Part shown: positions 13,460 through 46,444 of the stretch, piece by piece
Layout of the letters: each line of letters opens with the position of its first letter
Position numbering within the stretch: position 1 is the first letter of the stretch
Assembly (NCBI RefSeq): GCF_030450055.1
Contig: NZ_CP118480.1
Coordinates: 3,657,501-3,721,500 of the forward strand
Length of the DNA stretch: 64,000 nt
Source: Gallaecimonas kandeliae
GTDB lineage: Bacteria; Pseudomonadota; Gammaproteobacteria; Enterobacterales; Gallaecimonadaceae
Direction: 5' to 3'
The notes under the pieces: generated by a model
The model's database searches: none
What the model saw: only the letters and a program-made list of their open reading frames with translations
What the model was told of the DNA's origin: nothing
Translations under genes and position numbers: made by a program

Positions 13460-13950
13460 AACTGCGTTACCTGCCCCTGCTGGTCCTGGCCTTCGGCGCC
13501 AGTGCCAATATCCAAGACAAGCTGGCCCAATGCGCCCAATTGAGCGACGACGGCCTGCGCCTGGCCTGTTTCGATGCCCTGGCCAAGCAGGCCAGGAGCC
13601 AAGGCGACATGGCCGTAGCTCCTGTGACTTCCGCCGAGGAACAGGCTCTGCAGCGCCCCAAGGTGGTGGCAGAGACCCATGACCCCGTGGCCAGCTTCGG
13701 CATGGAGCAGCAGGTCGAGAAGAAACACGAGCTGGACAGCATCAAGGCGGTGGTGGTCAAGATCAACAAAGACCCCTACGGCAAGCTGATCCTGGTGCTG
13801 GATAACGGCCAGACCTGGAAGCAGGGTGACAGCGGTTACAGCGGTATCAAGACCGGCGACACCGTCAAGCTGGAGAAGGGTGCCCTGGGCGCCGTCTACC
13901 TGGGCAAGGACGGCGGCGGCCGCACCATCAGGGTCAGCCGCAGCAAATGA
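13456..13950 (+). CDS. Small exported protein with CAxL..DxxRLACFD motif, function unknown
   Basis: 164-aa secreted protein. The signal peptide MKLRYLPLLVLAFGASA is followed by a two-Cys motif (CAQL...RLACFD) that recurs in VasI-like and other periplasmic proteins. The C-terminal half looks like a small beta-barrel (LILVLDNGQTWKQGD, DTVKLEKGALGAVYL). It lies between tatC and tatD with 4-nt overlaps on both sides. No type VI secretion genes are nearby, so the VasI resemblance should not be read as function. Confidence 0.75.
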   Translation: MKLRYLPLLVLAFGASANIQDKLAQCAQLSDDGLRLACFDALAKQARSQGDMAVAPVTSAEEQALQRPKVVAETHDPVASFGMEQQVEKKHELDSIKAVVVKINKDPYGKLILVLDNGQTWKQGDSGYSGIKTGDTVKLEKGALGAVYLGKDGGGRTIRVSRSK

Positions 13951-18597: not shown

Positions 18598-19473
18598 TCA
18601 ATTGTCGTCCGTCTTACCCAGCAGGGCCGCCGCCAACTGGCTGGCCAGGCGTTCCCGCTCCAACAGGTAGTAATGGCCTGTTTCGTTGGCCCGGCCGATG
18701 AACTCCATGCCCAGCACGTTGCAGAGAGAGTCGGCATCGCCGCGGTAGCCGCGCCAGATCACGCCGTGGATATGGCTGTGACGGGTGATGCGGTCCATCA
18801 GCTTGCGCAGGCACCTTTCCAACTGGCTGTCGCAAAGACCACCGGCATGGGTGACCAGCAGATAGCAGGGGGCGTTTTCTTCCGGCAACTGCCCTGGGGT
18901 CAGCTTGCTGAAGTAGTCATCCCCGTCGATGGCGATGGCGTCCTTGGCCGACTTCTTTATGGGCACCATGACCATGTGGGCCAACAGCAGGTCGTGATGG
19001 CGGATCAACTGGTGGGACAGGCGGCCCTCGGCATTCAAGCGGCGGCAGGCCTCGATCATGACGTCGCCACTGTCGCAGGCGCCCACCCAACCGTAGAAGC
19101 GCTCGAACTCGGCCTGGTCATCCTCGCTCATCTCGACCCCCACCTTCAGGTGGTCGGCAACTCGGTAGCGATAGAAGAAGGCGCGCAGGCGGGTCCAAGG
19201 CTCGCGCAGCAGGAAGGCATCCGCCAGCTCTTTGGCTTCGTCGTCCTCACTCTCACAGAGCGTTTTCAGGGGGTCGTCCCCCACGGCGGCAATGATCTGG
19301 GCCTGGCGGTAAAGAGAAGGCGTAGTCACCCCCCGCTCCCATCGACTGATGGTCACGGCATCCAACCTGGCAAAGGCTTCTCTGCGGCAGGAGAGGTGGT
19401 GTGCGAACTCTTCCTGCGAAAGACCCAAAGTACGCCGTTTCGCTTTCACGAAAGCGGAAAATTCAAAATTCAT
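18598..19473 (-). CDS. XRE-family transcriptional regulator with long C-terminal domain
   Basis: 291-aa DNA-binding protein. The N-terminal helix-turn-helix (about residues 5-75) has RRTLGLSQEEFAHHL and TISRWERGVTTPS. The remaining ~200 residues form a separate domain; its end (RDITRHSHIHG-like helix, then GVIWRGYRGDADSLCNVLG and MEFIGR) resembles the last part of a GNAT acyltransferase fold, but I cannot confirm an acetyl-CoA site. The ATG at 19473 has AGGTGG upstream; a TTG directly before it is less likely. A 16-bp palindrome lies in its first codons. Target and ligand are unknown. Confidence 0.75.
   Translation of the reverse strand: MNFEFSAFVKAKRRTLGLSQEEFAHHLSCRREAFARLDAVTISRWERGVTTPSLYRQAQIIAAVGDDPLKTLCESEDDEAKELADAFLLREPWTRLRAFFYRYRVADHLKVGVEMSEDDQAEFERFYGWVGACDSGDVMIEACRRLNAEGRLSHQLIRHHDLLLAHMVMVPIKKSAKDAIAIDGDDYFSKLTPGQLPEENAPCYLLVTHAGGLCDSQLERCLRKLMDRITRHSHIHGVIWRGYRGDADSLCNVLGMEFIGRANETGHYYLLERERLASQLAAALLGKTDDN
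19441..19456. promoter_or_regulatory. Perfect 7-2-7 palindrome in the XRE gene start, possible operator
   Basis: CGCTTTC-AC-GAAAGCG is a perfect inverted repeat 17-32 nt downstream of the ATG of the XRE gene. Size and symmetry fit an XRE dimer site for autoregulation, but it also encodes the KAK codons and may be chance. Confidence 0.25.
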
Positions 19474-37141: not shown

Positions 37142-38070
37142 AGGCTTCTTCCGTAGACGGCTTCCAGTATGGCCTTGGCGCCGCTGTCCAGCAGCTGCTG
37201 GCCCAGGGTCTGGCCCAACGCTTCGGCCTGGCTGGCCGGGCCGCGGATCTCGGCCTCGATGATGGCGCCGCCGTCCGGCTGCCCGACCAGGCCGCGCAGC
37301 CAGAGCTCCTCGCCTTGCAGTTCAGCATAGCTGCCGATGGGCACCTGGCAGCCGCCCTGGAGGCGTTCGTTCATGGCCCGCTCGGCGCTGACCCTGATCC
37401 GGCTCGGCTCGTGACCGAGGGGGGCCAGCAGCGCCAGTACCCGCTCGTCGCCCAGCCGCGCCTCTATGCCGACGGCGCCCTGGCCCACGGCGGGCAGGCT
37501 CAGCTCAGGCGGCAGGGCGCTGCGGATGCGGTCGCCCATGCCGAGGCGCTTGAGGCCGGCGCAGGCCAGGATGATGGCGTCGTACTGGCCATCGTCCAGC
37601 TTGGCCAGGCGGCTGTTGACGTTGCCGCGCAGGTCCTTGACCACAAGATCGGGGCGGCGGGCCCGCAGCTGGCACTGGCGGCGCAGGCTGGAGGTGCCCA
37701 CCACGGCGCCGGCCGGCAGCGCGTCCAGGTCGGGGGATCGGTTGGAGACGAAGGCGTCCAGGGGATCCTCGCGCTCGCAGATGGTGACCAGGCCCAGGCC
37801 TTCGGGGAACTCTACAGGCACGTCCTTCATGGAATGGACGGCGATGTCGGCCCGGCCGTCCAGCATGGCCAGCTCCAGCTCTTTGACGAAGAGGCCCTTG
37901 CCGCCGACCTTGGCCAGGGGGGTGTCGAGGATCTTGTCACCCTGGGTGGTCATGGGCACCAGCACCACTTCCAGACCGGGGTGGGCCGCTTCCAGGGCCT
38001 CTTTCACATGGTGGGCCTGCCAGAGGGCCAGGGGACTTTGCCGGGTGGCAATACGAATGGATTGGGACAT
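37138..38070 (-). CDS. hemC: Porphobilinogen deaminase (hydroxymethylbilane synthase)
   Basis: 310-aa enzyme polymerising four porphobilinogens to hydroxymethylbilane. [32 protein letters not shown] and [18 protein letters not shown] are intact, and the dipyrromethane cofactor Cys lies in [16 protein letters not shown]. It heads the conserved hemC-hemD-hemX-hemY series opposite cyaA. A DUF2914 gene lies 39 nt upstream on the same strand. Confidence 0.98.
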
Positions 38071-38109
38071 CGCTGCGCTGCCTTGGATTGTTCTCAGCTC
38101 ATCCTACCA

Positions 38110-38490
38110 CTAGGGGGCTGTGCTTTCGACCAGGGTGTGCTGGTAGAGCAGGGTGCCGTCGTCGCTCAGCACCTCCAGCCGCCAGGTGCCGGGCCTGATG
38201 TGTTTCTGCGACCAGGTACGCCAGCGATCGGCCCCCAGCGGCAGGGCGATATCGGCCTGGAGCGCGCCGTTGAAGTACCAGCGGTGGTGCAGCTTCTGGC
38301 CGGCGCCGCCATGGACCTCGGTGAAGAGCACCAGCTTGTCCAGGCCCTTGGGCAGTTGGTCACCCTGCAGCACGCCTACGGGCTCCCGCTGCACCACGTC
38401 GCGGCACAGCACCACGCGGCTCAGGTCGGGGGTCGCCAGCACCAGGGGGCTGAGCAGGCTAAGCAACAACCAGAGAAAGCGTCTCGACAT
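38110..38490 (-). CDS. Exported DUF2914 protein
   Basis: 126-aa protein with signal peptide (MSRRFLWLLLSLLSPLVLA) and a DUF2914 domain: FTEVHGGAGQKLHHRWYFNG, WRTWSQKHIRPGTWRLEVL and a final LLYQHTLVE. The fold is a beta-sandwich; function is unknown. It sits between hemC and cyaA, 39 nt upstream of hemC on the same strand, so it may share the hem operon promoter. Confidence 0.85.
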   Translation of the reverse strand: MSRRFLWLLLSLLSPLVLATPDLSRVVLCRDVVQREPVGVLQGDQLPKGLDKLVLFTEVHGGAGQKLHHRWYFNGALQADIALPLGADRWRTWSQKHIRPGTWRLEVLSDDGTLLYQHTLVESTAP

Positions 38491-38563
38491 GGTCGAATAG
38501 TCCTTTTTCTTAATAATCTCAGCAGTATACCTATCGCCTTGGCGCCGACAGGAAATTGAGGCG

Positions 38564-38592
38564 TTGGCGAAAGGGGCGCCAGGGTTTAAAAT
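38564..38592 (+). promoter_or_regulatory. Candidate sigma-70 promoter for cyaA
   Basis: TTGGCG (38564-38569), 17 nt and TAAAAT (38587-38592), 29 nt upstream of the cyaA ATG. The -10 overlaps a CRP-like site. Confidence 0.55.
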
Positions 38593-38610
38593 GTGACCGA
38601 ATTAACACTT
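38589..38610 (+). promoter_or_regulatory. Candidate CRP-cAMP site overlapping the cyaA -10 box
   Basis: AAATGTGA-N6-TAACACTT: the left half is a perfect CRP half-site and the right half matches six of eight positions of TCACATTT. It covers the -10 element, as in E. coli where CRP-cAMP represses cyaA. Confidence 0.55.
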
Positions 38611-38620
38611 TAGACGGTCC

Positions 38621-40969
38621 ATGTCCCCCATCAGCCTCGACCAGCTCACCCTCAACATCGCCGCCCTGCACGCCGAACGCCGGCGCCTGGCCCGCCAGGC
38701 CATGACGCCCCAGGCGGCCATGGTGTTCGACCTGGTGCCGGCGCTGTTGCATTGCCAGGACCAAGCCCTGCCCGGCGGCGAGGAGGCGGCACCCCACGGC
38801 ATCCGCAGTGTCGAGGACGAGCCTCTGCGTAAACGCCTGGCCACCCGGCTGGGGGTCAAGGCGGACAGCCCCTCCGACGACAGCATACTGGCCGTCTATT
38901 CCATGGGCTCCACCGGCACCCTGGGCCAGACCCGTTGCTCGGATCTGGACATCTGGGTCTGCCACAGATCCTGCCTCGGCGCCGAAGAGCGCCAGGCCCT
39001 GGCCGCCAAGTGCGACCGCCTCACCGACTGGGGCAAGGGCCAGGGCATGGATCTGACCTTCTTCCTCATAGACCCCGAACAGTTCCGCCAGGGCAACAAA
39101 CAGGGCATGAGCGGCGAGTCCTGCGGCAGCTTCCAGCATTGGCTGTTGCTGGACGAATTCTACCGCAGCGCCATCTGCCTGGCCGGCCAGCTGCCGATCT
39201 GGCTGCTGGTCAGCCCGGACGACAAGACCCCCTACCTGCAGGCCAAGGCCAACCTCTTCGCCAAGGGGGTGGACCCCCACCAGTGGATAGACCTCGGCTC
39301 CCCGGACCCCATACCGGCGGACGAGTTCCTCGGCTCCATGCTCTGGCTGCTCTACAAGGGCATAGAAAATCCCTACAAGGCGCTGCTGAAGCTGACCCTG
39401 ATGTCCGCCTACGCCCGCCAGTACCCGGCGGTGCGGCTGCTGTGCAACGAGTTCCGCCGCGCCCTGCACAGGGGCGAGACCGAGGTCATGGCCCTGGACC
39501 CCTATCTGCTGCTGGAGCAGTACCTGCGTGAGCTGGACCTGGGGCCCGTAGAGCTGGATACGGCCCGCACCTGCCTCTACTTCAAGTGCGGCGGCGACAA
39601 CCTGCTGGAACTGCCCGCCAACCACGCCCAGGCGCTGGCCGACCTGGCCCAGTCCTGGGGCTGGGACCAGGCCAAGCGCGAGCAGCTCCAGGATCACCGC
39701 CACTGGCCCCTGGCGGAGCTGCAGGAATGGCACTTGCGGCTGCGTGAGCAGATGCTGGCCGGCCTGCACGAGGCGCGGGAGCTGTTCCGCCGCACCGGCA
39801 CAGTGTCGCGGCTCTGCCCCATCGAATTGACGGTGCTGAGCCGCAAGCTGGACGCCGCCTTCGCCGAGAAGCCCAACAAGCTGCAGCAGCTGTGCCTGCC
39901 GCCCCGGGTGGAAATGGGCCAGCCGAGCCTGGTGATCCGCAAGGACGGCCAATGGCAGCTGGCCTGCCCCCAGTCCGCCAAGACCCTCTACCAGTGCCAG
40001 GAGCTGCCCGGCCTGTTGGCCTGGTGCCTGCTCAACGGCCTGATCAGCAGCCATACCGAACTCCAGCTGGAAAGCGACAGCCTCAGCCTGGACAGCCTCG
40101 ACAGCCTCTGCCGCAGCATGGCCTGGCTGGGAGAGAAGATCGATCCCGCGCACCAGATCCTGGCCCAGCCGGCCCAGCTGGAGCGGGCCCAGATCATCAT
40201 CAACCTGGAGCAGGACGCCACCCGCGACATCAAGCTCAAACGCGGCCAGGTTCCCAACCCGCTGATGTTCGGCGAGGAAAAAGAGGTACTGGTGGGGGAA
40301 CTGACGCTGGTGGTGCGCAACACCTGGGGGGAATGCACAGTGCAGACCTTCAGGGGCAACCATGCCCTGGCCGAGCTGCTGCTGGCGCTGCTGCCGCTGA
40401 TGCCGGGGGACAGCCTGCAGGCCAAGCGGGTCCATATCCATTGCTTCGCCAGCCAGTTGGGGGAAACCATAGCCCACAAGGTGCTGGACCTTATCGCCGC
40501 CGCCCAGGCCCGCCTCACCCAAGGCCCCTGGACCCTGTGCGTCGGCAACGGCAAGTGGGTGTTCTGGTATCACGCCGGCGAGCTGCACTGGCAGGAAATG
40601 ACCGATCCCTTGGCTTTCTACGCCGCCCTGTCGGCGGCCAAGCTGGAACAGCACAGCCACAGCAAGGACCCGTCAGTGCCGGCCCCCGTCTATGCCCACG
40701 CCCTCTGCGGCCTGGTGCAGTTCTTCTTCATCAACAGGGAAGACGGTTACAGCCTCTACGTGTCCAACGAGCAGAACCAGATCAGCTATTACCACTACCC
40801 GGCCATGGACAAGGCCAACCTGGTGAACCTGATCAGCCGCTTCTACACCCAGAAGGAAAGCCTCTGCCCCAGCGCCACCTTCAACCTGCCCCAGTACTAC
40901 GAACTGGTGGAAAAGGAAGGGCATTGGCAGATGCAGCCTCTGACCACCTCGGCCCTGTCCGAACCCTGA
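38621..40969 (+). CDS. cyaA: Class I adenylate cyclase
   Basis: 782-aa cyclase making cAMP from ATP (E. coli 848). The catalytic nucleotidyltransferase motif GSTGTLGQTRCSDLDIWVC has the two metal-binding Asp residues; FFLIDPEQFRQG, GSFQHWLLLDEFYRS and PIWLLVSPDD also match. The C-terminal regulatory part ends ...QYYELVEKEGHWQ. The ATG at 38621 has no good ribosome-binding site (GACGGTCC), which fits the weak translation typical of cyaA. Regulated by a promoter with a CRP-like site. Confidence 0.97.
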   Translation: MSPISLDQLTLNIAALHAERRRLARQAMTPQAAMVFDLVPALLHCQDQALPGGEEAAPHGIRSVEDEPLRKRLATRLGVKADSPSDDSILAVYSMGSTGTLGQTRCSDLDIWVCHRSCLGAEERQALAAKCDRLTDWGKGQGMDLTFFLIDPEQFRQGNKQGMSGESCGSFQHWLLLDEFYRSAICLAGQLPIWLLVSPDDKTPYLQAKANLFAKGVDPHQWIDLGSPDPIPADEFLGSMLWLLYKGIENPYKALLKLTLMSAYARQYPAVRLLCNEFRRALHRGETEVMALDPYLLLEQYLRELDLGPVELDTARTCLYFKCGGDNLLELPANHAQALADLAQSWGWDQAKREQLQDHRHWPLAELQEWHLRLREQMLAGLHEARELFRRTGTVSRLCPIELTVLSRKLDAAFAEKPNKLQQLCLPPRVEMGQPSLVIRKDGQWQLACPQSAKTLYQCQELPGLLAWCLLNGLISSHTELQLESDSLSLDSLDSLCRSMAWLGEKIDPAHQILAQPAQLERAQIIINLEQDATRDIKLKRGQVPNPLMFGEEKEVLVGELTLVVRNTWGECTVQTFRGNHALAELLLALLPLMPGDSLQAKRVHIHCFASQLGETIAHKVLDLIAAAQARLTQGPWTLCVGNGKWVFWYHAGELHWQEMTDPLAFYAALSAAKLEQHSHSKDPSVPAPVYAHALCGLVQFFFINREDGYSLYVSNEQNQISYYHYPAMDKANLVNLISRFYTQKESLCPSATFNLPQYYELVEKEGHWQMQPLTTSALSEP

Positions 40970-40981
40970 GTTCCCCCAAAG

Positions 40982-41010
40982 AAAAAGGGCTGCCCAACGC
41001 AGCCCTTTTT
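40982..41010. terminator. Terminator between cyaA and cyaY array
   Basis: Stem AAAAAGGGCTGC / GCAGCCCTTTTT with loop CCAAC; A and T runs on both sides make it suitable for both strands. Confidence 0.9.
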
Positions 41011-41020
41011 TCTGCCCGCC

Positions 41021-41590
41021 TTTTAGAGGCTTAACTTCAGATCGGCGCCGGCCTGGCGGCTGACCGCCTCGTCCAGGAAGGCCTTGAGCTCGGCGCCACT
41101 GCGCACGTCGAACCAGAGCCCGTCACGGTAGCCAAAGTGGTGGCCGTTGAAACGGGTGGCCACCCAGACCTGGTGCCAAGGATGCCGGCTGGTGCAGCCG
41201 GCCTGGCACCTTTTAGAGGCTTAGCTTCAGATCGGCGCCGGCCTGGCGGCTGACCGCCTCGTCCAGGAAGGCCTTGAGTTCGGCGCCGCTGCGCACGTCA
41301 AACCAGAGCCCGCCCCGGTAGCCAAAATGGTGGCCGTTGAAACGGGTGGCCACCCAGACCTGGTGCCAAGGATGCCGGCTGGTGCAGCCGGCCTGGCACC
41401 TTTTAGAGGCTTAACTTCAGATCGGCGCCGGCCTGGCGGCTGACCGCCTCGTCCAGGAAGGCCTTGAGCTCGGCACCGCTGCGCACGTCGAACCAGAGCC
41501 CGTCACGGTAGCCAAAATGGTGGCCGTTGAAACGGGTGGCCACCCAAACCTGGTGCCAAGGATGCCGGCTGGTGCAGCCGGCCTGGCACC
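41021..41590 (-). repeat. Three exact 190-bp tandem units: cyaY 3' end plus hairpin spacer
   Basis: Units at 41021-41210, 41211-41400 and 41401-41590 have an identical 190-bp period and run directly into intact cyaY, whose last 156 nt (41591-41746) are the fourth, functional copy. Each unit, read on the - strand, is 50 codons of the cyaY C-terminus (from HQVWVATRF to DLKLSL) with stop, then a 34-nt hairpin spacer. Against intact cyaY, copies differ at 2, 5 and 2 positions; only one change (Asp to Gly in the middle unit) alters the protein. Units lack start codons and are not genes. This fills the 570 nt between the cyaA terminator and cyaY. Confidence 0.97.
41172..41210. repeat. Nested hairpin spacer of the cyaY array (also 41362-41400 and 41552-41590)
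   Basis: Outer stem GGTGCCA / TGGCACC and inner stem GCCGGCT / AGCCGGC around loop GGTGC, with an asymmetric bulge AGGAT opposite C. The spacer is identical in all three units. The end of intact cyaY matches only the first bases (GGTGC on the + strand). Confidence 0.9.
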
Positions 41591-41592
41591 TT

Positions 41593-41922
41593 TTAGAGGC
41601 TTAACTTCAGATCGGCGCCGGCCTGGCGGCTGACCGCCTCGTCCAGGAAGGCCTTGAGCTCGGCGCCGCTGCGCACGTCGAACCAGAGCCCGTCACGGTA
41701 GCCAAAATGGTGGCCGTTGAAACGGGTGGCCACCCAGACCTGGTGCAGGGGCGGCTGCTTGTTGATGATGATCTTGGAATTGTCAGGAAACAGCAGGTCC
41801 AGCTTGCCGCCCAAAGACTCCACTTCGATGTCCAGGCCGCTGTCCTCAGCCACCTTTTCCACGGCGTCTTCTATGGCCAACAACAGGGCGTCGGTCAAAT
41901 CCTCGTACTGGCTGTCGTTCAT
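41593..41922 (-). CDS. cyaY: Iron donor protein CyaY (frataxin)
   Basis: 109-aa bacterial frataxin that binds iron and modulates Fe-S cluster assembly by IscS. The acidic first helix ([21 protein letters not shown]) holds the iron-binding residues; the sheet has [26 protein letters not shown] and the family core [15 protein letters not shown], ending [18 protein letters not shown]. Length is near E. coli CyaY (106). The gene is complete, but its 3' half is duplicated three times downstream. It is divergent from lptM and convergent with cyaA, as in enterobacteria. Confidence 0.97.
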
Positions 41923-42001
41923 CTCTTACCTTCGGTTTTGCAAAAGCCATGGGTAGTGCGATTATAGGGTCAGAGCCCGATAAATCCGATAGCGATACCA
42001 A

Positions 42002-42124
42002 GTGAGAAAGCGCCTTCTACTCCTGGCCTTGTTTGGCCTGTTGCTGGGTGGTTGTGGCCAGAAAGGCCCCCTTTATACCCCCGACCAACCCCAGAACAAC
42101 CAACCCGGCGAGCAGCAGCCATGA
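42002..42124 (+). CDS. lptM: LPS translocon maturation lipoprotein LptM (YifL)
   Basis: 40-aa lipoprotein starting at GTG 42002. Signal peptide [17 protein letters not shown] is followed by the lipidated Cys18 and GQKGPLYTP, the LptM hallmark (CGQKGPLY). LptM binds the LptDE outer-membrane LPS translocon and helps LptD disulfide maturation. The stop overlaps the lysA ATG (ATGATG). Its place between cyaY and lysA/dapF matches yifL in E. coli. Confidence 0.93.
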   Translation: MRKRLLLLALFGLLLGGCGQKGPLYTPDQPQNNQPGEQQP

Positions 42125-43371
42125 TGCACCGTTACCAGAACCAGCAGCTGATGTTGGAAGATTGCAGCGTCGCCGCCCTGGCGGAGCGCTTCGGCACTCC
42201 TCTCTACCTCTATTCCCAGGTCGCCATTGAGCAGGCCTTCAACGCCTTCGCCGAGCCACTCAAGGGCCGTAAGCACCTGATCTGCTATGCCGTCAAGGCC
42301 AACTCCAACCTGGCGGTGCTGAACCTGCTGGCCCGCCTCGGCGCCGGCTTCGACATCGTCTCAGGCGGCGAACTGGCCAGGGTCATGGCCGCCGGCGGCG
42401 ACCCGGCCAAGGTGGTCTTCTCCGGGGTCGGCAAGACCCGCGCCGAGATGGCCCAGGCCTTGAAGGCCGGCATCCACTGCTTCAACGTCGAGTCCGTCGC
42501 CGAGCTGGACCGCCTCAACGCCGTGGCCGCCGAGCTGGGCCTGGTGGCCCCCGTCTCCATCCGCGTCAACCCGGACGTGGACGCCAAGACCCACCCCTAT
42601 ATCGCCACCGGCCTCAAAGAGAACAAGTTCGGCATCGATATCCGCATGGCCCCCGACGCCTTCCGCAAGGCCGCCAGCCTGCCCCACCTCAAGGTGGTGG
42701 GGGTGGACTGCCACATCGGCTCCCAGCTGACCCAGACCCAGCCCTTCGTTGACGCCATCAAGCGCCTGATCGAGCTGGAGCAGCAGCTCCAGGCCGACGG
42801 CATAGTGCTGTCCCACCTCGACATCGGCGGTGGCCTTGGGGTCAGCTACACCGACGAGCAGCCCCCGACCCCGGCCCAGTACCTGGCACAAGTGCTGCCG
42901 CTGATCCCCGCCAACCTGACCGTGGTGCTGGAGCCCGGTCGCGCCCTGGTGGCCAACGCCGGCCTGCTGGTGGGCCGGGTGGAGATGACCAAGGACAACG
43001 GCTTCAAGCGCTTCGTGATCCTCGACACCGGCATGAACGACCTGATGCGCCCCACCCTCTACCAGGCGGTGATGCCGGTGCTGGCCGTCAAGGAGGCCCA
43101 GAACCAGGGGCCCGTCTCTGACCTGGTGGGCCCTGTCTGCGAGACAGGCGATTGGTTGGCCAAGGACGTCCCCCTGGCCGCCGAGGAAGGTGACCTGGTG
43201 GCCATAGGCGGCGCCGGTGCCTACGGCTTCACCATGAGTTCCCAGTACAACAGCAGGCCCCGCGCCGCCGAGGTGATGGTCAGGGGCGATGAAGCCCTGC
43301 TGATCCGCCAGCGCGAGACGGTGGAGAACCTCTGGGCCGGTGAACAGCTGCTGCCGGAGGCTTCATGCTAG
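42121..43371 (+). CDS. lysA: Diaminopimelate decarboxylase
   Basis: 416-aa PLP enzyme converting meso-diaminopimelate to lysine. PLP Lys is in [27 protein letters not shown] and [14 protein letters not shown] bind phosphate and PLP, and [13 protein letters not shown] supplies the partner-subunit Cys. The ATG at 42121 overlaps the lptM stop; the next ATG at 42124 is equally possible. lysA directly before dapF puts substrate maker and user in order dapF product to lysA. Confidence 0.97.
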
Positions 43372-44195
43372 TTCAGTTCGCCAAGATGCACGGCCTGGGC
43401 AACGACTTCATGGTGGTGGACAACGTCACCCAGAACGTCTTTTTCTCGGCCGAACAGATCCAGAAGCTGGCCGACCGCCACACCGGCATCGGCTTCGACC
43501 AGCTGCTGGTGGTGGAGCCGCCCTACGATCCGGACCTCGACTTCCACTACCGCATCTTCAATGCCGACGGCTCCGAAGTGGAGCAGTGCGGCAACGGCGC
43601 CCGCTGTTTCGCCCGTTTCGTGCGCCTCAAGGGCCTGATCAACCGCAACCGCATCAAGGTCTCCACGGCCAAGGGCAAGCTGACCCTCAACATCGACAAG
43701 GACAACCTGGTCTCGGTCAACATGGGGGTGCCGGTGCTGGAGCCGGCCCAGGTGCCCTTCAGGGCCCAGAAGGAAGAGAAGACCTACATACTGCGGGAAG
43801 GGGAACACACCTTCTTCGCCGGTGTCGTGTCCATGGGTAACCCCCATTGCGTATTGCAGGTGGACAGCACCCAGGACGCCGACGTCGCTCAGATTGGCCC
43901 GCTGCTGGGGGGCTCGGACCGCTTCCCGGAAGGGGTCAACGTCGGCTTCATGGAAGTGGTGAGCCGCGACCATGTCCGGCTGCGGGTCTATGAGCGCGGC
44001 GCCGGCGAAACCCAGGCCTGCGGCAGCGGCGCCTGCGCCGCCGTGGTGGTAGGCCAGCTCCAGGACAAGTTGGGCAAGAAGGTACGGGTGGATCTGCCCG
44101 GCGGCAGCCTCCAGATCAACTGGGCCGGCCCGGGGGAACCCCTCTACATGACGGGCCCGGCCGAACACGTGTACGACGGACAGATACACCTATGA
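43365..44195 (+). CDS. dapF: Diaminopimelate epimerase
   Basis: 276-aa enzyme interconverting LL- and meso-diaminopimelate. The catalytic cysteines lie in [15 protein letters not shown] and [12 protein letters not shown], and [12 protein letters not shown] is at the N-terminus. It overlaps lysA by 7 nt and the next gene by 4 nt. Confidence 0.98.
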
Positions 44196-44866
44196 GCGAG
44201 AGCAACACCGCCAGCCTGCTGGCCCTGGACGAGGAACTGGTCGCCGAGTACCTGGAGACCAACCCGGACTTCTTCGGGCGCCATCCCGAGCTGCTGGCCA
44301 GGCTGCGCCTGCCCCACGGCGAGAAGGGCTCGGTGTCGCTGCTGGAGCGCCAGTTGGAACTGGCCCGCCACAAGCACCGGGACCTCGAGGAAGAGATCAC
44401 GGCACTGCTGGGGGTGGCCGCCCACAACGAGCAGGTGGCCAAGGCCTGCCATGAGCTGGGCCTCCAGGCCCTGGCCGCCACCAGCCTCGACCAGCTGATC
44501 GCCCTGCTCGGCGAAGGGGTGCGCATCCATCTGGGCATGGACATCAGCCGGCTGGTGCTCTGCGCCCGCTTGGCCGAAACCCAGCAGAAGGCCCTGAGTT
44601 CGGTGTTCGAACGCCTGGCCAAGGGGCCCTATTTCGGCCGCCTCACCGAGGACGAAAAACGGCTGTTGCTGGGCCATGCCCCGGTCAGGGCCGAGTCCCT
44701 GGCGCTGCTGCCCATCCGCCGCCAGGACAAGCTGCTGGGGATCTGGGTTATCGCCTCCCCCGACGCCGGCCATTTCCAGCCGGACATGGACGCCCTCCTG
44801 GTCGGCCAGCTCTGCGACCTGCTGGCCCTGCGCCTGGCGGCCTTGAGCCATGCCGAGCTTCGCTGA
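44192..44866 (+). CDS. yigA: DUF484 family protein (YigA-like)
   Basis: 224-aa cytoplasmic protein. Residues 15-60 ([24 protein letters not shown]) give the DUF484 signature; a helical linker then leads to a GAF-like domain (about 85-220). Function unknown; it lies between dapF and xerC in most gammaproteobacteria. It overlaps dapF by 4 nt and xerC by 17 nt. Confidence 0.92.
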
Positions 44867-45740
44867 AGCCCTGCCCCGCTACTACCGCCACCTGGCCAGC
44901 GAGCGCCAGCGCTCGCCCCATACCCTGGCCGGCTACCGCCGCCAGTTGGACGCCCAGGCCGCCTTCTTCCAAGACAGGGGCCAAAGCCGGCTGGAACAGG
45001 TCAAGGAAGGGGAGATCCGCCAGTGGCTGGCCGCCGAGACCCGCCGCGGCCAGTCTCCCCGCTCCCTGGCCCAGGGGCTCTCGGCCCTGCGCGGCCTCTA
45101 CCAGTACCTGCTGCACCTGGGGCTGCTCAGCGACAACCCGGCGGCCAGGGTCAAGCCCCCCAAGCAGCCGAAACGGCTGCCCAAGGCCCTGGATCTCGAT
45201 GAGACCGGCAAGCTCTTCGCCGCCGACAGCAAGGACCCCCTGCTGCTGCGGGACAAGGCCATGCTGGAGCTGCTCTACGGCTGCGGCCTGCGCCTGTCGG
45301 AGCTGGTGGGAGTCGATTGTGGCCAGATCCGCGGCGGCGAGCTGATGGTCACCGGCAAGGGCGGCAAGGACCGCATAGTGCCGGTGGGCCGGGCGGCCCT
45401 GGCCGCCGTCGAGAGATGGCTCAAGGTGCGCGGCCAGTTCGCCAAGGGCGGCGAGCGGGCGCTCTTCATCAGCAACCGCGGCGCCCGGGTGTCGGTACGC
45501 ACTGTGCAACAGCGGCTCGGCCAGTACGCCCAGAAGGCCGGCCTCGACAGCCACCTGCACCCCCACAAGCTGCGCCACAGCTTCGCCACCCACCTGCTGT
45601 CGGCCAGCGGCGACCTGAGGGCCGTACAGGAATTGCTGGGCCACAGCCAACTGGCCACCACCCAGATCTACACTCATCTTGATATGGACCGCTTGGCCAA
45701 GGTCTACGACGCCGCCCACCCGAGAGCGAGACGCAAATGA
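44850..45740 (+). CDS. xerC: Tyrosine recombinase XerC
   Basis: 296-aa recombinase that resolves chromosome dimers at dif with XerD. The catalytic set is complete: Arg in GCGLRLSELVGV, Lys in GKGGKDRIVPVG, HKLRHSFATHLL (HxxR), GHSQLATTQIYTH (His and the nucleophile Tyr). It overlaps both neighbours. The adjacent conserved genes show this is the housekeeping XerC, not a mobile-element integrase. Confidence 0.98.
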   Translation: MPSFAEALPRYYRHLASERQRSPHTLAGYRRQLDAQAAFFQDRGQSRLEQVKEGEIRQWLAAETRRGQSPRSLAQGLSALRGLYQYLLHLGLLSDNPAARVKPPKQPKRLPKALDLDETGKLFAADSKDPLLLRDKAMLELLYGCGLRLSELVGVDCGQIRGGELMVTGKGGKDRIVPVGRAALAAVERWLKVRGQFAKGGERALFISNRGARVSVRTVQQRLGQYAQKAGLDSHLHPHKLRHSFATHLLSASGDLRAVQELLGHSQLATTQIYTHLDMDRLAKVYDAAHPRARRK

Positions 45741-46444
45741 TCCATTACCGCCCCCTGGGCCCCATCGCCGCCATCAGCTTCGATCTGGACGACACGTTGT
45801 ACGACAACAGGCCCGTGATCCAGGCCGCCGAAGACAAGCTCTATGCCTGGCTGGCGGAGAGGGTCAAGCTGCGGGAGGACAGCCGCAGCTACTTCCAGCA
45901 GTGGCGCCAGCGGGTGCTGAAGGAAAAGCCGGCCCTGCGCCACGATGCCACCGCCAGCCGCCACCAGGCGCTGCTGCTGGGGCTCAAGGCCCTGGGGGTG
46001 CCCCAGGCCCAGGTGCTGGCCGACGCCGCCATGGGCCACTTCCTGGCCTGGCGCTCCGAGGGGGACATAGCCCCGGAAGTGCACCAGATGCTGGCCTACC
46101 TGAGCGGCCGTCGGCCGCTGATCGCCATCTCCAACGGCAATGCCGATGTCGAGCGCCTGGGCCTGGGCCAGTATTTCAAGGCGAGCTTCCACGCCGGCGG
46201 CAGCCGCCGCATGAAGCCGGACCCGGACCTCTTCGTCGCCGCAGCCCAGCACCTGAAATTGACCCCCAAGGCCATACTGCACATCGGCGACCACCTGGAC
46301 GACGACATCCAGGGTGCCCTGCTCGCCGGCTACCAGGCCGCCTGGTACAACCCCAAGGGCCACTCCCTGCGCCAGCACCCCAGGGGCCGGCTGCTGCCCC
46401 ATTTCGAGTTTGGCGCCTTGGACTCGCTGCAGCAGTTGCTATAA
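45737..46444 (+). CDS. yigB: HAD-family hydrolase YigB (FMN phosphatase type)
   Basis: 235-aa haloacid dehalogenase-like phosphatase. Motif I SFDLDDTLYDN, motif II AISNGNAD, the Lys in MKPDPDLF and motif IV HIGDHLDDDIQGAL are intact. E. coli YigB dephosphorylates FMN in riboflavin metabolism. It overlaps xerC by 4 nt. Confidence 0.93.
   Translation: MIHYRPLGPIAAISFDLDDTLYDNRPVIQAAEDKLYAWLAERVKLREDSRSYFQQWRQRVLKEKPALRHDATASRHQALLLGLKALGVPQAQVLADAAMGHFLAWRSEGDIAPEVHQMLAYLSGRRPLIAISNGNADVERLGLGQYFKASFHAGGSRRMKPDPDLFVAAAQHLKLTPKAILHIGDHLDDDIQGALLAGYQAAWYNPKGHSLRQHPRGRLLPHFEFGALDSLQQLL

Follow-up and report, generated by a model that had tools for sequence, protein, structure and literature searches.

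Behind the complete cyaY gene of Gallaecimonas kandeliae, on the minus strand, lie three extra copies of the tail of that gene. The array is real, and it looks like one instance of a copying of gene tails that recurs across the genes of this genome, rather than a private system of frataxin. We believe, on balance, that it is a gene-end tandem array, which arose when the end of the gene was duplicated and which then grew by unequal exchange, with tails rotating through the functional position. The features are listed below by their coordinates in the window, the stretch of 64,000 nucleotides that was analysed.

38621..40969, plus strand: cyaA, class I adenylate cyclase, the convergent neighbour of cyaY
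40982..41010, no strand assigned: terminator-like hairpin separating the array from cyaA, each strand with a T run (repeat search and DNA fold)
41023..41175, minus strand: displaced tail T3, closest to the terminator-like hairpin; 2 private changes, 2 of 2 synonymous
41176..41212, minus strand: spacer 3, same sequence as spacer 1
41213..41365, minus strand: displaced tail T2; 5 private changes, 4 of 5 synonymous
41366..41402, minus strand: spacer 2, same sequence as spacer 1
41403..41555, minus strand: displaced tail T1; 2 private changes, 2 of 2 synonymous
41556..41592, minus strand: spacer 1, AAGG plus 33 nt, palindromic; matches to cyaY cover 19 of the 33 nt
41593..41745, minus strand: tail T0, the last 50 codons and the stop of intact cyaY; 0 private changes among the four tails
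41593..41922, minus strand: intact cyaY, frataxin homologue of 109 aa (ORF list and Pfam)

The cyaY protein matches the Pfam family Frataxin_Cyay with an E-value of 1.1e-26, and the stops of cyaY and cyaA are separated by 623 nt. TRF places the array at 41019-41746 (period 190, 3.8 copies, 97% match, score 1393), while the ungapped repeat search gives spacings of 190, 190 and 190. Each unit of 190 bp is made up of 153 nt of coding sequence (50 codons and the stop), the AAGG that follows the stop in all four tails, and 33 spacer nt; there are no indels between the four tails, and the three 33-nt spacers are identical. An earlier note on this DNA had described three 190-bp units behind an intact cyaY, and together with the alignment these results confirm both its coordinates and its anatomy. 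Since the four tails differ in their private changes (0, 2, 5 and 2), a plain duplication during assembly is argued against, and we consider an assembly artefact an unlikely source of the array. Its tandem units at a gene border, within the size range from tens of bp up to about 200 bp, give the array the dimensions of a minisatellite or VNTR.

The spacer, together with its neighbouring GG and CACC, forms a two-step palindrome. Folded as DNA with its flanks (41 nt) it reaches -17.5 kcal/mol, with a z-score of -5.4 and none of 200 shuffles as stable; folded as RNA (39 nt), it is equalled in stability by 1 of 3000 GC-matched stretches of the genome. Same-strand matches to cyaY of at least 9 nt cover the 19 of 33 nt listed above, with none on the other strand, and GCCAGGCCGGC, from near the end of cyaY, and CTGCACCAG, from the start of the tail, adjoin each other within the spacer. 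This coverage was reached by 32 of 20,000 GC-matched 33-mers of the genome sample, in a post hoc test devised once the spacer had been seen; a single 11-nt match between spacer and cyaY is weak, being found in 2.2% of 1967 controls. In the alignment, the unit remains similar across the spacer's second half, interrupted by small gaps. The spacer appears to be built largely of pieces of cyaY. Template switching could leave such a join of gene pieces in palindromic order. The earlier note had argued that simple tandem duplication is hampered by the need for a hairpin at the first junction; because the spacer seems to be made largely from the gene itself, this objection loses much of its weight.

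Behind the distal tail, 40982-40993 and 40999-41010 form the arms of a perfect inverted repeat of 12 bp (DNA fold z -4.8). We read its T run as pairing inside the stem, and a simple promoter and terminator scan of the cyaY stretch listed no terminators and no promoters. The earlier note had taken this hairpin for the native terminator of cyaY. That label does not fit the four sister species (G001-G004), where the ends of cyaY and cyaA overlap in three (by 12, 12 and 4 nt) and lie 6 nt apart in the fourth, leaving no room for a terminator of this type.

All four sister species have one cyaY with one tail and zero units, so that the array is not a fixed set of three shared by relatives. In an order-wide sample, 311 of 394 genomes contain a match to the cyaY protein, and more than one match is found in this genome only. 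A genome-wide search of the kind that the earlier note had proposed places the unit only at the cyaY locus of the one-contig, 3.84-Mb genome; the 19-nt core of the hairpin matches exactly at three sites, every one of them within the array, and with two mismatches at five further sites outside it. Searched with a hairpin model, the array reaches 76.8 bits, and 16.8 bits is the most that any other listed match in the genome attains, with 150 of 652 first-look candidates scored. No blastn match was found in plasmid and phage collections and no exact 27-mer in viral contigs, and Rfam on 38000-46000 gave one sub-threshold match, outside the array (mir-133, 25.2 bits against a gathering threshold of 55.5). 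A dispersed element as the identity of the spacer was thus rejected, there being nothing convincing outside the array from the core, model, or viral, plasmid and phage searches. Among the literature matches listed for frataxin or CyaY together with tandem repeats, none contained the term 'tandem repeat'.

Tail duplications at other genes were sought in the window and in 60 stretches, each 20 kb long, which together make up 1.264 Mb or 33% of the genome; they were looked for as local direct repeats with offsets of 40-700 bp and matches of at least 28 nt. The search returned 29 clusters, 14 of them labelled as tails; two of these were dropped (L078, with an offset of 574 and two similar whole ORFs, and the L091 cluster at 18732, which holds about 15 nt of gene). 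This leaves 12 gene-tail duplications including cyaY, or about 9.5 per Mb, each beginning within the 3' end of a protein gene; five of the 29 clusters lie wholly inside a gene and one is head-only. The eleven other genes were assigned by Pfam except where stated; the names erpA, ratA, pxp and tcdA are ours.

L041: MgtE-type transporter
L046: Fe-S biosynthesis protein, erpA-like
L050: ratA-like, before an RnfH gene
L061: membrane protein without a Pfam match
L072: pxpB-like, before a pxpC-like gene
L082: two tail arrays, at a ThiF-family, tcdA-like gene and at the adjoining thiolase gene
L085: acyltransferase
L088: DUF1439 gene
L089: alpha/beta hydrolase
L091: MTHFR

Eight of the 12 arrays stand before a convergent neighbour, an arrangement shared by 33% of genes (P 0.018). 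Their offsets are 77, 78, 79, 82, 82, 85, 86, 89, 90, 119, 153 and 190 bp; nine genes thus fall within 77-90 bp, none between 40 and 76 bp although the search range included these values, and cyaY has the offset of 190. As judged by eye, the strict layout of the cyaY locus (gene, spacer, displaced tail, and a terminator right after the last tail) is seen again at mgtE, the tcdA-like gene and the thiolase gene. The erpA-like and acyltransferase arrays have a terminator-like hairpin within the unit, the L061 array has an extra spacer at its end, and the DUF1439 and MTHFR arrays have more downstream sequence in common. The pxpB-like and ratA-like arrays are junction arrays without a terminator; in such arrays on overlapping gene pairs each unit spans the end of the first gene and the start of the second, and both genes are whole. 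Arrays at overlapping or abutting stop/start junctions were observed at L072 5068-5379 (pxpB-like/pxpC-like), at L050 16151-16394 (ratA-like/RnfH) and, in the sister species G003, at L116 2277-2558 (ftsW and the next gene). The spacers of the different genes do not look alike by eye, except for 12 nt common to those of cyaY and L061.

In G003 four tail duplications were counted in 0.4 Mb: three labelled as tails by the script (one of them also as a head), and one, at L132, which was labelled as a head, counted by reading and spans 20 nt only. G001 has none in 0.4 Mb, and four other genera combined have one in 0.8 Mb; rates between genomes are indicative only, as GC content is a confounder (0.63-0.65 in G. 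kandeliae and G003, 0.53 in G001, 0.41-0.44 in the others).

Repeats of other kinds were also observed in the sample. L041 696-2128 holds a 604-bp unit in 2.4 copies, which includes a complete short ORF of 72 aa and an intergenic palindrome rich in GC, and L052 17014-17913 is a 448-bp duplication of 100% identity that carries a 125-aa ORF twice. By eye, the intergenic palindromic stretches at L041 ~700-830, L045 7340-8130 and L048 11950-12200 are similar, and perhaps represent a BIME-like dispersed family.

Most of the differences between tail copies are synonymous. At cyaY, 8 of the 9 private changes are synonymous in the cyaY frame, where 3.3 of 9 are expected if the same kinds of change are placed at random sites (P 3e-4). 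Pooled over 14 arrays (12 of G. kandeliae and two of G003, with the three copies of cyaY pooled as 8:1 and otherwise one displaced copy each), there are 49 synonymous and 22 non-synonymous codon differences. Left out of this count are L116; L132, whose 20 nt show no difference; one of the two displaced copies of L091, namely the second; stretches that lie out of frame ahead of the conserved tails; and an L061 copy with a less favourable 4:4; with that copy in place of the other the ratio becomes 49:25, with both copies 53:26, and without cyaY 41:21 or 41:24. The observed synonymous share is 66-69%, compared with about 31% expected if all change were neutral and about 47% if the gene branch alone were under selection. 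A ratio of 49:22 was reached in 0 of 20,000 all-neutral simulations and in a fraction of 5e-5 under the half-neutral model; on recount, the half-neutral P is 0.0001-0.0002 (0.0002 for 49:25), and 0.002-0.006 without cyaY. Of 80 nucleotide differences in 15 aligned pairs, 50 fall at codon position 3. The signal is carried by mgtE (9:1 at 81% identity), MTHFR, the tcdA-like gene and cyaY, while ratA (4:4), pxpB (3:3), the acyltransferase (3:3), the hydrolase (2:2) and, in G003, HlyD (0:1) and recQ (5:6) look neutral. This excess of synonymous differences suggests that the displaced tails at several genes once worked as gene ends, having been displaced through repeat exchange or brought in from other strains.

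One might suppose instead that the displaced cyaY tails are expressed and kept by selection today. The synonymous excess at cyaY would agree with this, and each tail lies in a 65-codon frame that is open between stops. Yet these frames contain no ATG, their product would be half a frataxin domain, and displaced tails elsewhere have acquired a premature stop (recQ of G003) or lost their stop (the hydrolase, L089), so that we regard present selection on the tails as extremely improbable.

From the anatomy, the recurrence at other genes, the absence from sister species, the spacer composition and the synonymous excess we infer the following course of events. A single aberrant replication or recombination event would have placed a copy of the final ~156 nt of cyaY behind it, and the first join, made by template switching from pieces of cyaY, would have produced the palindromic spacer. 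Out-of-register homologous exchange between the repeats could then have raised the number of units from one to three, which would explain why the spacers are identical. The same exchange, within the lineage or with DNA of other strains, would swap the tail that is joined to the gene body; displaced tails would in this way have served as functional ends, and their differences would be mostly synonymous as a result. The array may persist because, between convergent genes, extra DNA without a promoter or start codon is nearly neutral. Neither a dedicated enzyme nor a present function would be necessary. This course is in line with the exact period, the identical spacers, the 19 of 33 spacer nt that match cyaY, the 11 other genes, the zero units in four of four sisters, the convergent position of 8 of 12 arrays, the synonymous excess, and the tyrV and rnpB arrays of Escherichia coli described below. 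It does not predict that 9 of 12 offsets fall within 77-90 bp, a range that cyaY itself lies outside, and the neutral-looking arrays at six genes and the post hoc nature of the spacer test also speak against it.

The main rival explanation, which we think unlikely for cyaY, is that the new ends came from outside. DNA of a diverged strain would recombine into the gene body, bringing its own end and an intergenic piece (the spacer), and rejoining inside the recipient's old tail would displace that tail; the cyaY units would then multiply by unequal exchange. Homology-facilitated illegitimate recombination is described for three naturally competent species and for E. coli conjugation in the available text of PMC3240628. 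As between orthologues of different strains, the similarity of gene and displaced copy ends a few nt past the stop at cyaY, mgtE, the tcdA-like gene and the thiolase gene (by eye). The tail differences show the synonymous excess, and gaps total a multiple of 3 in the tcdA-like, acyltransferase, erpA-like and ftsW alignments, although they do not in those of cyaY, mgtE, DUF1439 and MTHFR, upstream of the well-conserved part. A ComEC-type gene is present in the genome; TfoX_N was not found, however, and of the 14 control genomes 10 have a ComEC match as well, among them E. coli. Head-only duplications are scarce (one labelled, against 12 tails), most of the cyaY spacer is made of pieces of cyaY, and the thiolase and mgtE spacers were not seen in the sister loci read for these two genes, where the thiolase match in G003, with only 54% identity, is possibly a paralogue. 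An outside source may nonetheless be needed for the tails of some genes, such as mgtE, as the synonymous share of 66-69% exceeds the ~47% expected under drift after duplication, and replacement from outside may be how the mgtE array originated. Judged by eye, the terminator next to the displaced tail of mgtE is very similar to those that directly follow the gene in G001 and G004, is less like that of G002 and differs from that of G003. This likeness to two sister species is in keeping with an outside source; it also suggests that the displaced tail probably sits at the position of the old end. Read by eye from the alignments, the sites that bear on which mgtE tail is the older are mixed. The order of gene body, newer end and old end that the earlier note proposed is therefore plausible given the mgtE terminators; at the cyaY locus the sister species have no terminator at that place.

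The earlier note had likened the array to a miniature integrative element, implying a dedicated mechanism that repeatedly inserts a 3' end and hairpin between gene body and old end. The order and polarity would fit such a mechanism, several genes are affected, and the offsets are narrow, with 77-90 bp at 9 of 12 genes; apart from this narrow range there is little positive evidence for it. Against the comparison, the 190-bp unit has no recombinase or payload and is confined to one locus, the spacer is not dispersed and has no plasmid, phage or viral match, and by eye the spacers of different genes are unlike, the 12 nt of cyaY and L061 excepted. We consider a mechanism of this kind very unlikely. 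A genus-specific process, in which a fresh 3' end of preferred size is repeatedly attached to a gene body while the old one moves on towards the terminator, would account for the same offsets, and we hold it to be quite unlikely.

Arrays of comparable design are known elsewhere. In E. coli K-12, whose sequence itself is our source here, the tyrV (178 bp, 3.1 copies) and rnpB (113 bp, 3.5 copies) arrays begin inside the 3' end of a gene and consist of full units and a partial one, as does the cyaY array, in which each unit likewise repeats the gene end; among the literature matches listed for tyrT and rnpB, nothing dealt with those repeats. The overlap of array and gene is 19 nt for tyrV and 23 nt for rnpB, in contrast to 153 nt for cyaY, and tyrV and rnpB are genes for stable RNAs, whereas cyaY codes for a protein. 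Arrays at RNA genes were also observed in G. kandeliae and a sister species: at L072 13585-14016, a 122-bp array of 3.5 copies starts in the 3' end of a tRNA-Val gene (13544-13619), its units holding, by eye, a terminator together with the decayed body of a tRNA-like sequence and resembling the tyrT repeats of E. coli, and at L101 3337-4016 of the sister species G001 there is a 102-bp array of tRNA-like 3' parts and terminators (tRNA-Asn by eye).

Integrative elements can replace the 3' end of their target gene and displace the old end. A displaced or duplicated gene end flanking the insert is common to them and to cyaY, but the cyaY array has no integrase, payload or dispersed attachment site: 37 nt separate the tails, and no ORF of at least 60 aa is listed within the units. 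REP and BIME sequences are imperfect palindromes behind genes, dispersed in many intergenic regions; the cyaY spacer is likewise an imperfect palindrome behind a gene, but at a single locus. Of the dispersed MIRU family, too, the array lacks the dispersal, its unit being found at one place in the genome. In the available text of PMC2734929, the MIRU-VNTR locus VNTR3239 of Mycobacterium tuberculosis, between rnc and fpg1, has units of 55 and 79 bp, the interval is 1-54 bp in the other mycobacteria listed, and its organisation varies among isolates. Like the cyaY array it lengthens the interval at a gene border, although such variation is described for VNTR3239 and the cyaY array comes from one genome; unlike it, VNTR3239 starts 40 bp after the rnc stop according to the same text, and is hence no tail array (PMC2734929). 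The cyaY array thus resembles known arrays, and what appears to be new is the long protein-coding tail, the signature of coding selection and the occurrence as a set at several genes.

The displaced tails may preserve, as small fossils, the ends that these genes had earlier. Were tails to take turns in the functional position, or to derive from other strains, gene-end turnover and short-range recombination would become directly measurable; and should a genus-specific supply of ends be at work, the arrays would be a readable record of former gene ends. What began as a single curiosity at cyaY becomes a class whose rate (12 in 1.264 Mb), bias in position and size preference any mechanism would have to explain.
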